DNA of 64,000 nucleotides from Paludibacter sp. (lineage in GTDB: Bacteria > Bacteroidota > Bacteroidia > Bacteroidales > Paludibacteraceae). The notes beneath the pieces are model-generated. The model saw only the letters and a program-made list of their open reading frames with translations. It ran no database searches and was not told where the DNA came from. The stretch covers positions 1 to 64,000 of the forward strand of contig JARLGX010000015.1 of the NCBI GenBank assembly GCA_031292575.1, written 5' to 3'. This document shows, piece after piece, positions 52,938-56,878 of this stretch (position 1 is its first letter; each line of letters begins with the position of its first letter). The position numbers and the translations under genes were made by a program.

Positions 52938-53606
52938 TTAAACAATTATTTGTCTTAATCGCTTGCTATCCAGAATTGTAAATTCTTTTTTATTGACGCT
53001 GATAATTCCTTCCTGAATCATTTCTGATAAACTTCGTGCCAATGAAGGACGGGCCACTCCAAAAAAATCAGCTAACTCTGTTTGATTTCTATTAATCTCG
53101 AACGGTTTCCCATCTCGAATTGAATTTTCGAGTAAAAAATGAGCCACTTTTCCTTTTATTGTTTTGATCGAAAGCAATTGCAACCGATTGGTCAGAAACT
53201 GCGTGCGATTGGCATTATGAGTCATAAAACTGGTCATAAAATCAGGCTTAGTCATCATTAACCGTACTATTTCGGCTTTCGGAATCTTCATTATTTCCAC
53301 TTCTTCCAAAGCAGTTACATCCACCGGAAAATGATTATTGTCCGAAAATAAAAATGCAGGAGCAAGTGGACGTGGAGCTTTAATAATTTCAATACCTAAT
53401 ATATTTCCGTTTTCTGTAATCATCTCGGTTTTTACCGACCCCAATGTGAGCATATAAAGCGCATCGCATACTTCACCCTGACGAATAATCAATTCATTTT
53501 TCTGATAGGCTTTAGTGCTGCATTTTAAATCATTCAAAAAACCTTCTTCGTCATCAATCTCTAATTTACTACAAACCGGACAGGCCGATAAATCTACTTT
53601 CTTCAT
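52938..53606 (-). CDS. Crp/Fnr-family regulator, probable HcpR-like nitrosative-stress regulator
   Basis: From the chosen start the 222-residue protein begins MKKVDLSACPVCSKLEID. A cyclic-nucleotide-binding-like domain follows (ELIIRQGEVCDALYMLTLGS), with a C-terminal winged helix (RNQTELADFFGVARPSLARS). The CPVC pair near the start may bind metal or sense redox. The gene is divergent from cupin-ferredoxin-hcp, and one dyad operator lies between the two promoters. This matches HcpR-type regulators that activate hcp in anaerobes. The ORF-track start at 53648 lies upstream of its own -7 box, so 53606 is chosen. Heme or NO binding cannot be judged from sequence. Confidence 0.82.
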   Translation of the reverse strand: MKKVDLSACPVCSKLEIDDEEGFLNDLKCSTKAYQKNELIIRQGEVCDALYMLTLGSVKTEMITENGNILGIEIIKAPRPLAPAFLFSDNNHFPVDVTALEEVEIMKIPKAEIVRLMMTKPDFMTSFMTHNANRTQFLTNRLQLLSIKTIKGKVAHFLLENSIRDGKPFEINRNQTELADFFGVARPSLARSLSEMIQEGIISVNKKEFTILDSKRLRQIIV

Positions 53607-53626
53607 TTTTTTATAATTCAATAATG

Positions 53627-53696
53627 CAAAAATACAAACAAAATTCAACAGTGTAACAGATGTTACACTTTAATTGTTTCGGTAACCATACTTTTG
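53627..53696. promoter_or_regulatory. Shared operator and divergent promoters of the Crp/Fnr and hcp units
   Basis: A 9-2-9 dyad, agtgtaacagatgttacact (53650-53669), contains GTA-N8-TAC. On the minus strand TATTTTTG (53627-53634) is the regulator's -7 box; on the plus strand TACTTTTG (53689-53696) is the cupin gene's. Neither side has a good -33 element. The dyad centre falls about 40-43 bp from both predicted starts, the class II activator position. This supports positive autoregulation and activation of the hcp operon. Confidence 0.8.
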
Positions 53697-53756
53697 CAGC
53701 ATAATACCGGAAGATAATTTGTCTTTCTAACATTATAAACTTTTAAATTCAAAGTA

Positions 53757-54083
53757 ATGGAAAATATAGCATTCCCAACTGCTGAAAAATTCAGCATGAC
53801 CGAAAAAGTGAGCTATGTAGATGGCTCAGTGGTAAGTAAAATTATTATTCGAAACGAAAAAGGCAATGTAACACTCTTTGCTTTCGACAAAGGTGAATTT
53901 CTGAGTGAACACACCGCACCTTTTAATGCCATTGTACAGGTGCTTGATGGAAAAGGTGAAGTGGTTATTGATGGAAAACCCTTTGAATTAAATATAGGTG
54001 ATAGTATTATCATGCCTGCCAACGTCCGACACGCAGTTAATGCACTGGAGAAATTTAAAATGTTATTAATCATGATTAAATGA
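53757..54083 (+). CDS. Cupin-domain protein
   Basis: The 108-residue protein has a single cupin beta-barrel with the conserved stretches EHTAPFNAIVQVLDGKGEVV (about residues 46-65) and GDSIIMPANVRHAVNALE. Only some of the usual metal-binding His/Glu residues are present (EH at 46-47 and RH near the end), so metal binding is uncertain. It is the first gene downstream of the shared dyad operator and precedes the ferredoxin-like and hcp genes, suggesting a nitrosative-stress role. Its biochemical function is not known. Confidence 0.85.
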   Translation: MENIAFPTAEKFSMTEKVSYVDGSVVSKIIIRNEKGNVTLFAFDKGEFLSEHTAPFNAIVQVLDGKGEVVIDGKPFELNIGDSIIMPANVRHAVNALEKFKMLLIMIK

Positions 54084-54191
54084 GGATTCTTCGACCCCAA
54101 AGGGGAGATTTGAAAAACCAATTTATAAGAAAGTAAAATATCAAAGACAAAACTAATTTAATTCACATTTAGGGGTTAGGGGTAGTATTTT
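54084..54191 (+). repeat. Intergenic element 1 in the hcp operon
   Basis: This 108-bp spacer contains gaccccaaaggggaga near its start and tttaggggttaggggtag just before the next gene, with AT-rich sequence between. The same design occurs in the next operon spacer (55071-55177). Confidence 0.45.
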
Positions 54192-55070
54192 ATGAAAAGG
54201 ACTATTATTAAAATTGACGAATTGCTTTGCAATGGTTGTGAAGCTTGTGTACAGGGTTGTCATGAAGGAGCACTTCAAATGATCGACGGTAAGGCGAGGA
54301 TAGTAAGTGAACTCTACTGTGATGGACTGGGAGCTTGCATAGGCGATTGTCCGGTAGGAGCTATCACGTTGGAAGAGCGTGAAGCTGAGCCTTATGATGA
54401 AATCGCTACTATCAAACGTATAGCGACCAAAGGAGAAAAAACAATTTTAGCACACCTTCGGCATTTGAAAGATCATGAAGAATTTGTTTTTCTAAAACAA
54501 GGTGTTACCTGGTTGAAACAGAATAATATCAATGTTGATTTTGCTTCGGTACACAATGCCCCAGCTCCAAAAACACCAACAGTTTGTGCATGTCCCGGAA
54601 GCAATGAAATGTCTTTTGCACCGGCAGCAGCAAAGAAGTCCGGGTTTCACATGGCTTCACCGGTTATTTCTACCGTTAACGAAAATGCTTCACAGCTTCG
54701 ACAGTGGCCCGTACAATTGCATTTATTAAATCCTGAAGCAGGTTATTTTAAGGGTGCAGACGTAGTGTTGGCAGCAGACTGTGTAGCTTTCAGCTTTGCC
54801 GATTTCCACAATCGTTTTCTTGCTGGTAAAATTCTTGCTATCGCCTGTCCAAAGTTGGATTCGAACCAGGATGTGTATTTGGAAAAACTCAAAAATATGA
54901 TCATTTATTCTGCTATAAATACTCTTACTGTCGTAATTATGGAAGTACCATGCTGTGGAGGATTATTCCGATTGACACAAAAAGCAGTAGCAGAAGCTGG
55001 TCGTAAAATACCTGTAAAACTTGTAGTTATCGGAACCAGAGGAGATATTCTTAAGGAAGAGTGGGCGTAG
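54192..55070 (+). CDS. 4Fe-4S ferredoxin-domain protein of the hcp operon
   Basis: The 292-residue cytoplasmic protein has an N-terminal di-cluster-type ferredoxin domain. The first set is C13-x2-C16-x2-C19-x3-C23 (LCNGCEACVQGC) and the second is C43-x5-C49-x3-C53P. The remaining 200 residues carry extra conserved-looking cysteines (VCACPGSNEM, IACPKLDS and EVPCCGGL) that may bind another cofactor. Ferredoxin-type proteins encoded next to hcp are thought to deliver electrons to Hcp. The C-terminal domain is not one I can name. The gene precedes hcp by 107 bp. Confidence 0.85.
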   Translation: MKRTIIKIDELLCNGCEACVQGCHEGALQMIDGKARIVSELYCDGLGACIGDCPVGAITLEEREAEPYDEIATIKRIATKGEKTILAHLRHLKDHEEFVFLKQGVTWLKQNNINVDFASVHNAPAPKTPTVCACPGSNEMSFAPAAAKKSGFHMASPVISTVNENASQLRQWPVQLHLLNPEAGYFKGADVVLAADCVAFSFADFHNRFLAGKILAIACPKLDSNQDVYLEKLKNMIIYSAINTLTVVIMEVPCCGGLFRLTQKAVAEAGRKIPVKLVVIGTRGDILKEEWA

Positions 55071-55177
55071 ATAACCCCTATCCCCTAAGGGGAACAATAA
55101 TTTCCAATTATTATTAAAATCAAATTATACTAACATTTCTTATTCTCTTTAGGGGGATAGAGTAAAAATTTAAAATT
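55071..55177 (+). repeat. Intergenic element 2 in the hcp operon
   Basis: This 107-bp spacer starts with taacccctatcccctaaggg and ends with ctctttagggggatagag. The two ends form an inverted repeat around an AT-rich core. It shares layout and short motifs with 54084-54191. Confidence 0.5.
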
Positions 55178-56845
55178 ATGAACATGTTTTGCTATCAATG
55201 CCAGGAGGCAGCCAAAGGGTCGGGGTGCGAGGTTAAGGGAGTTTGTGGAAAAACTCCCGAAGTATCAGCCTTACAAGACTTACTTATCTATCAAATCAAA
55301 GGTTTATCGCATTATACAACGGCTCTTCGTCTGTTGGAAATCGAAAATGAAACCGCTAACCTCTTTATTACCGACAGTCTTTTCATGACTATCACCAACG
55401 CAAACTTCGACTATGAACGTTTCGTTAACCGAATCCGCGAAGGATTTAAACTTCGTTCACAACTCAAAGTTATTCTCCGCGAAAATAAAATTGAACTGCC
55501 ACAAAACGAACTACTTAGCTGGACAGCTGTAAAAGCATCCGAAATGGAAGAAATTGCCAAAAATATTGGTGTTTTAGCCACTGAAAACGAAGATGTCCGT
55601 TCATTACGCGAACTTACTATTTATGGTTTAAAAGGTATGGCTGCTTATGTGGAACATGCGCAAAATCTGGGTTACAATGATCCTACTGTACACGCATTTA
55701 TCCAACATGCTTTGGTAGCAACTACCAATGATGCACTCTCAGCCGACGAACTTACCGCTTTAGTACTCGAAACAGGTAAATGGGGAGTAACTGTTATGGC
55801 TATGCTTGATAAAGCCAATACCACTTCGTACGGTAATCCTGAAATTACGAAAGTAAACATTGGCGTTCGCTCAAATCCGGGAATTCTCATTAGCGGTCAC
55901 GATTTAAAGGACATGGAAGAGTTGCTAAAACAAACTGAAGGAACAGGTGTTGACGTTTATACTCATAGTGAAATGCTTCCTGCAAACTATTATCCGGCGT
56001 TTAAAAAGTACAAACATTTTGTTGGAAATTACGGTGGTGCCTGGTGGAGTCAGGTGACTGACTTTGAAACATTCAACGGTGTTGTGTTATCCACAACCAA
56101 CTGTATTGTTCCGCCTAAAAGTACAGCTACTTACGTGGACCGTGTTTATACTACCGGTGCTTCAGGATTCCCGTCATTTAAGCATATTGCTGATCGTGAA
56201 GATGGAAAACCGAAAGATTTTTCGGAAATGATTGCACATGCTAAGACTTTTGCTGCTCCAACCGAAATTGAAACAGGAGAAATTGTAGGTGGATTTGCAC
56301 ATGCTCAAGTATTTGCGTTAGCTGATAAAGTAGTTGACGCTGTAAAATCGGGTGCCATCCGCAAGTTTTTCGTAATGGCCGGTTGCGATGGTCGCATGAA
56401 AGGTCGTAGTTACTACACTGAATTCGCGGAGCAACTGCCTACCGATACCGTAATTCTGACTGCCGGTTGTGCCAAATACCGTTATAATAAACTGCCATTG
56501 GGCGATATAGGTGGCATTCCTCGTGTATTGGATGCCGGACAATGTAACGACAGTTTTTCGTTGGTGATGATTGCACTGAAATTGAAAGAAGTATTTGAGC
56601 TGAATGATATCAACGATTTGCCAATTGCTTACAACATTGCGTGGTACGAACAAAAAGCAGTTATTGTATTGTTAGCTCTGCTTCACCTTGGTGTGAAAAA
56701 TATTCATCTCGGACCAACTTTGCCTGCATTCCTTTCACCAAATGTAGCCAACGTATTGGTTAATGTATTCGGAATAGCTCCAATTGGCAGCGTGGACGAG
56801 GATATGAAGTTGTTCTTGCCAAGTTTGGAACTGGAAGAAAAATAA
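55178..56845 (+). CDS. hcp: Hydroxylamine reductase / hybrid cluster protein (class I)
   Basis: Hcp is now regarded mainly as an NO reductase protecting anaerobes from nitrosative stress; hydroxylamine reduction is the classical activity. The 555-residue protein has N-terminal cysteines C5-x2-C8-x8-C17-x5-C23 ([20 protein letters not shown]), the class I spacing of strict anaerobes. Hybrid-cluster ligand motifs are present: [47 protein letters not shown] and AGQCNDSF. It is the last gene of the cupin-ferredoxin-hcp unit under the shared dyad. A perfect palindrome follows. Confidence 0.97.
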
Positions 56846-56852
56846 AAACAAA

Positions 56853-56878
56853 TAGAGACAGGTTGCAACCTGTCTCTA
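56853..56878. terminator. Perfect 26-bp palindrome after hcp (terminator or REP-like element)
   Basis: The sequence tagagacaggttgcaacctg, completed by tctcta, is perfectly self-complementary. It lies 8 bp after the hcp stop, with no T-tract. Its outer gagac...gtctc arms and gttgca core resemble the hairpin after GH43 (41830-41858), suggesting a repeat family. Confidence 0.65.

Follow-up and report, generated by a model that had tools for sequence, protein, structure and literature searches.

A predicted HcpR operator at a fixed class II distance from the cupin–hcp operon promoter in Paludibacter and other Bacteroidales

The DNA analysed here, referred to as the window, is a stretch of 64,000 nucleotides from Paludibacter sp. 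It contains hcpR, a gene for a 222-aa regulator of the Crp/Fnr family (52938–53606, minus strand), assigned on the basis of PF00027, PF13545, the best PDB match (9day) and the recognition helix, and a plus-strand cluster that ends in hcp. The first gene of this operon encodes a small cupin protein of 108 aa (53757–54083; PF07883) and adjoins hcpR in most Paludibacter-type loci; it is followed by a gene for a 292-aa 4Fe-4S ferredoxin-domain protein (54192–55070, plus strand; Fer4 domains), which is found upstream of hcp in relatives as well, and then by hcp itself, encoding a hybrid cluster protein of the hydroxylamine reductase family (555 aa; 55178–56845, plus strand; PF03063 with E 4e-174, NF003658 above its cut-off). 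There is one genomic match to hcp, which is hence the sole copy in the genome. An earlier examination of the window, here called the sequence-only reading, had proposed a nitrosative-stress module built around hcp, and the analysis supports this.

Some further features of these loci deserve mention. The spacers within the cupin–4Fe-4S–hcp cluster (54084–54191 and 55071–55177) carry TTAGGGGTTAGGGG-type repeats, with an exact copy at 54169–54185; such repeats give 118 matches in the genome (60 forward and 58 reverse, compared with 3 for the control), many of them paired in inverted orientation at a distance of about 100 bp, and constitute an interspersed REP-like family. Directly past the hcp stop codon lies a strong inverted repeat, AGAGACAGGTTGCAACCTGTCTCT (56854–56877), probably the terminator of the operon. 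In the Paludibacter MAG JAURYY01, two contigs (loci L043 and L059) each bear an hcpR–cupin pair with its own copy of the dyad described below, and this genome would thus have two paralogous modules, provided that the bin is clean.

Between hcpR and the cupin–4Fe-4S–hcp cluster lies the dyad AGTGTAACAGATGTTACACT (53650–53669, no strand), a predicted HcpR operator according to its sequence, its uniqueness in the genome, its match to the HcpR2 motif and its conservation in 71 loci. It spans 20 bp, with perfect 9-bp arms, AGTGTAACA and TGTTACACT, around a 2-bp GA centre at 53659.5, and its core, GTAAC-N4-GTTAC, occupies 53653–53666. In a pattern search of the 3.46-Mb genome, exact TGTAACAnnTGTTACA was found in a single copy, which is the dyad at 53650–53669, and the next best match, a single copy on a different contig (contig 37), has one mismatch. 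Judging from base composition, chance would yield the 16-mer 0.0007 times per window and 0.04 times per genome, and the 20-mer dyad 0.0001 times per genome. Not only is the existence of the dyad borne out, with perfect arms and no second genomic copy, but its earlier assignment to a Crp/Fnr-family dimer is also supported.

The identity of this regulator was deduced from several features. Matches to PF00027 and PF13545 above cut-off reveal the Crp/Fnr architecture, that is, a sensor β-barrel and a Crp-type helix-turn-helix, and the closest named relatives are Paludibacter MAGs (regulator 86% identical). Its best match in the PDB is 9day (E 7.7e-26), with 1o5l, DNR, and CRP ranking lower; 9day is a full-length homologue of the Porphyromonas gingivalis sensing-domain entries 5v30 and 6np6, covering the same sequence region, and all three are taken, as read from the literature, to be P. 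gingivalis HcpR structures. The recognition helix, A-R-P-S-L-A-R, has a proline at CRP position 181, which is linked with the HcpR2 motif GTAACnnnnGTTAC in PMC1274295 (2005). This published motif is the core of the dyad GTAACAGATGTTAC, and with the proline, the motif, and the linkage to hcp all present, the regulator belongs to the HcpR2 branch. The pairing of site and regulator is more than mere adjacency because the published correlation between residue and motif fits.

As for the signal, P. gingivalis HcpR is an activator of hcp under NO, in which Met68 serves as heme ligand (PMC12750200). Residue M62 of the window regulator, kept in most relatives, aligns with the E-M methionine of the P. 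gingivalis protein, at position 82 in the 9day chain, a position that would correspond to Met68 plus a 14-residue tag. Heme-dependent NO sensing by the window HcpR may be assumed by analogy with the P. gingivalis protein. An Fe–S cluster held by the cysteines C9, C12, C29, and C47 was considered but not favoured, as the full set is not kept in relatives; their spacing is also unlike that of FNR. The first two are part of a CPVC motif (residues 9–12; window positions 53571–53582) present in the window's clade; a sister clade has PEW in its place and also has the alternative hcpR promoter arrangement set out below.

The −7 box of the cupin–hcp operon, TACTTTTG (53689–53696, plus strand), conforms to TAnnTTTG, the −7 consensus of Bacteroidota, in which this element is centred at −7 (PMC7366714), and it occupies the same place in relatives. 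For comparison, 80 related loci were collected, 71 of which qualified, window included; the dyad was located exactly or with at most two mismatches, between hcpR and the nearest operon gene, in a manner blind to the promoter box. The box starts at base 30 from the dyad centre in every case, exact in 68 of the 71 loci and with one mismatch in 3, and after removal of loci with over 75% similarity across 120 bp, 60 exact and 3 one-mismatch boxes remained (n = 63). Within the first 100 bases towards the operon, the 71 loci contain a single further exact TAnnTTTG, at base 85. In the window, the first base of the cupin box is 29.5 bp from the dyad centre, a spacing that remains invariant while regulator identity drops to 40%. 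With start sites deduced from the Bacteroides −7 convention, subject to a possible error of a base or two, the dyad would be centred at about −40.5 to −41 for the operon, which is the class II position.

Neither promoter in the window has TTTG at the −33 place, a zone that is the dyad itself, and the proximal half of the dyad overlies the −33 zone of the operon. On the cupin–hcp side, the predicted activator site is found where class II activation would have it, fixed at about −41 in place of the upstream element. These results uphold several parts of the sequence-only reading, namely the presence of two −7 boxes (minus-strand TATTTTTG and plus-strand TACTTTTG), the lack of a −33 element at either promoter, and class II placement for the operon, seen at 29.5 bp in 71 of 71 loci when one box mismatch is allowed. 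The two halves of the dyad differ in conservation: of the 71 loci, 68 have a perfect promoter-distal half (TGTAACA) and 42 a perfect proximal half. Moreover, a conserved A/T tract lies upstream of the dyad, at approximately −55 to −61 in operon coordinates, and could bind the C-terminal domain of the α-subunit.

The regulator side is variable. The candidate hcpR −7 box, TATTTTTG, reads on the minus strand from 53634 down to 53627 and starts at base 26 from the dyad centre; with its first base 25.5 bp from that centre, it is 4 bp nearer than the cupin box (29.5 bp), and the claim that the dyad sits midway between the boxes fails. This asymmetry carries weight because on the operon side the distance is constant throughout the 71 loci. 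Among the 12 closest relatives of the window, 10 share the box at base 26, one has it at 27, and one has a degenerate box; elsewhere in Bacteroidales the regulator-side box is at 18, 19, 22, 24, 25, or 27, or is absent. Across relatives, some regulator boxes are located on the far (operon) side of the dyad, at −58 to −69. In the sister Paludibacter group with PEW, for instance, a regulator-strand TAnnTTTG is found beyond the dyad, at −67 to −69 towards the operon, in 10 loci, so that the dyad would fall downstream of the hcpR start. In addition, 12 loci have hcpR separated from the dyad by 250 to 3828 bp; in these the dyad remains at the operon, and near hcpR none better than chance is present. 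Given both the variable regulator side and the retention of the dyad by the operon, the dyad belongs to the operon, and autoregulation through it is at best lineage-specific.

The far-side boxes have features of their own. Those at −67 to −69 (L050, L052, L054–L057, L059, L060, L062, and L064) occur in loci with diverged flanks and face across the hcp-operon promoter, a topology like that described for SnoA in Bacteroides thetaiotaomicron. Prolixibacteraceae-type loci (L090, L092, L097, L100, L103, L105, L110, and L113) carry an antisense TAATTTTG-type box at −58/−59, also on the operon side, which persists even in two loci with hcpR at a distance of over 1 kb (L092 and L110) and may be either an antisense promoter or a conserved leader.

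The genome was scanned by pattern searches for the dyad and for the composite of dyad and promoter box. The composite site, GTAAC-N4-GTTAC-N22-TAnnTTTG, occurs once in the genome, no second one is found there within two mismatches, and matches with three mismatches are fewer than with a reversed-pattern control. A genome-wide search for the dyad upstream of other genes, which had been recommended along with the original proposal, thus returned no second site of this architecture. Two candidates were discarded: the one-mismatch dyad on contig 37 lies within a run of FKBP-type genes and lacks the composite spacing, and nrfA is not available as a second target, since the genome encodes no cytochrome c552 nitrite reductase. 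On this sequence evidence, the regulon is probably the cupin–hcp operon alone. For most Bacteroides, PMC1274295 (2005) likewise proposed hcp as the sole HcpR target.

The dyad is very probably an HcpR operator that provides one-way class II activation of the cupin–hcp operon. The site is regarded as one-way because its position, its stronger promoter-distal half, and the upstream A/T tract all face the operon. Sequences, spacing, conservation, and family membership come directly from the analysis; binding, NO control, start sites, and the sign of autoregulation are inferred. Under nitrosative stress, HcpR would be loaded with NO, as judged from P. gingivalis HcpR, and the NO-loaded dimer would bind the dyad some 41 bp upstream of the cupin–4Fe-4S–hcp transcription start. 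The bound HcpR would then stand in for the missing −33 element and recruit RNA polymerase by direct contact, in the manner of class II Crp/Fnr proteins. In B. thetaiotaomicron, hcp is no longer transcribed once hcpR is deleted, and the antisense snoA RNA does not change (PMC13370916, preprint).

For the hcpR promoter the site would be at approximately −36.5, where HcpR and the operon-bound polymerase would more likely cover the −33 region than activate, the outcome being no effect or mild negative feedback. Owing to the 4-bp shift, the dimer would be rotated against the polymerase by well more than one third of a helical turn; E. coli CRP depends strongly on helical phase in the class I arrangement, and its effects at −40.5 are erratic and at times repressive (PMC6301791). 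Some effect of HcpR on hcpR, of either sign, may exist in the window's clade because the base-26 box is conserved there. Negative autoregulation, in which the dimer that activates hcp blocks hcpR by covering its −33 region, would refine one-way activation, and we consider it plausible, if somewhat short of an even bet. It is favoured by the −36.5 placement in the window and by the 10 sister Paludibacter loci, in which an hcpR box at −67 to −69 puts the dyad in a roadblock position. However, the far-side promoters are each deduced from one box, and the arrangement is not conserved across Bacteroidales, which suggests weak selection on autoregulation, whatever its sign. More speculatively, HcpR sites of Bacteroidales may be rigid one-way class II hcp operators with an hcpR promoter whose place around them has changed from lineage to lineage, upstream and out of register in the window and facing across the hcp promoter in the sister group, with bound HcpR repressing hcpR and SnoA-like antisense RNAs possibly a form of the facing transcript; this extended proposal is rather unlikely to hold as a whole.

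The sequence-only reading had instead envisaged a symmetric switch, in which one HcpR dimer activates both hcpR and the cupin–hcp operon, with positive autoregulation as the result. In its favour are the two −7 boxes, neither with a −33 element, and the base-26 regulator box kept in the window's clade. Yet a symmetric divergent site would have equal class II distances conserved on both sides, whereas those found are 25.5 and 29.5 bp, the operon spacing shows no single-base change in 71 loci, and small displacements of the site affect activation by E. coli CRP (PMC6301791). Elsewhere, regulator-side boxes are at scattered positions, on the far side, or absent, and hcpR does not retain the site upon separation from the operon. 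These sequence comparisons consequently support neither symmetric activation of the two promoters nor positive autoregulation of hcpR, owing to the 4-bp difference, the unconserved regulator-side geometry, the far-side regulator box in one sister group, and the site staying with the operon; the symmetric switch is judged improbable.

The inverted repeat could also act as RNA, either as the hairpin of an antisense transcript, as has been suggested for SnoA in the hcp promoter of B. thetaiotaomicron, or as a terminator. An 8-bp hairpin can form on both strands (−9.0 and −12.7 kcal/mol, z −1.6 and −2.8), and the 3′ hairpin of the antisense RNA coincides with the HcpR site (PMC13370916, preprint). 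Nevertheless, in the window the operon side lacks an antisense −7 box, mismatches in relatives pile up in one half and would break the hairpin, and the B. neonati locus (L073) folds no better than shuffles. Besides, the fixed −7 box spacing is expected of a protein operator rather than of a hairpin. An Rfam search of 53300–54300 gave nothing above the gathering score, with sub-threshold matches to unrelated families. With its fold weak and not conserved, the dyad was rejected as an RNA hairpin, and this reading is highly unlikely. Finally, a chance palindrome or the site of an unrelated regulator can practically be dismissed: although further 9-bp-arm palindromes are present in the window, this one is unique and unexpected in the genome, and its sequence and position are kept with the hcpR–hcp pair in several Bacteroidales families.

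The one-way operator can be set beside known systems. In class II Crp/Fnr promoters of E. coli, the activator site is at −41.5. The window site resembles these in replacing the upstream promoter element at about −41, on deduced starts, but differs in serving a Bacteroidota primary sigma factor with −7/−33 elements. With the HcpR2 regulon, as given in PMC1274295, it shares the regulator branch, the motif GTAACnnnnGTTAC, the target hcp, and a regulator adjoining its target; the difference is that cupin and 4Fe-4S genes precede hcp here, whereas hcp alone is listed there as the target in most Bacteroides. P. gingivalis HcpR–hcp (PMC12750200) offers the closest solved homologue, and the methionine aligned with Met68 is present in the window HcpR, but the P. 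gingivalis protein differs in its motif and in its specificity residue, which is glutamine (PMC1274295), in contrast to proline in the window. The B. thetaiotaomicron hcpR–snoA–hcp locus (PMC13370916, preprint) likewise has an HcpR site in the hcp promoter, and hcpR is required there for hcp transcription; unlike it, the window is devoid of an operon-side antisense −7 box, a candidate for which exists in some relatives.

The passages of PMC1274295 that were consulted do not describe the fixed 29.5-bp spacing to the Bacteroidota −7 box. A literature search on HcpR and class II placement produced nothing relevant. The regulator type, motif, and target are already known, and the precise spacing rule is the main addition. 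To our knowledge, spacing rules between activators and promoters for the unusual Bacteroidota sigma factor are apparently little documented. What began as a guess at a two-way switch becomes a precise one-way promoter model for nitrosative-stress defence in Bacteroidales, and its composite signature is usable for calling HcpR-activated operons.
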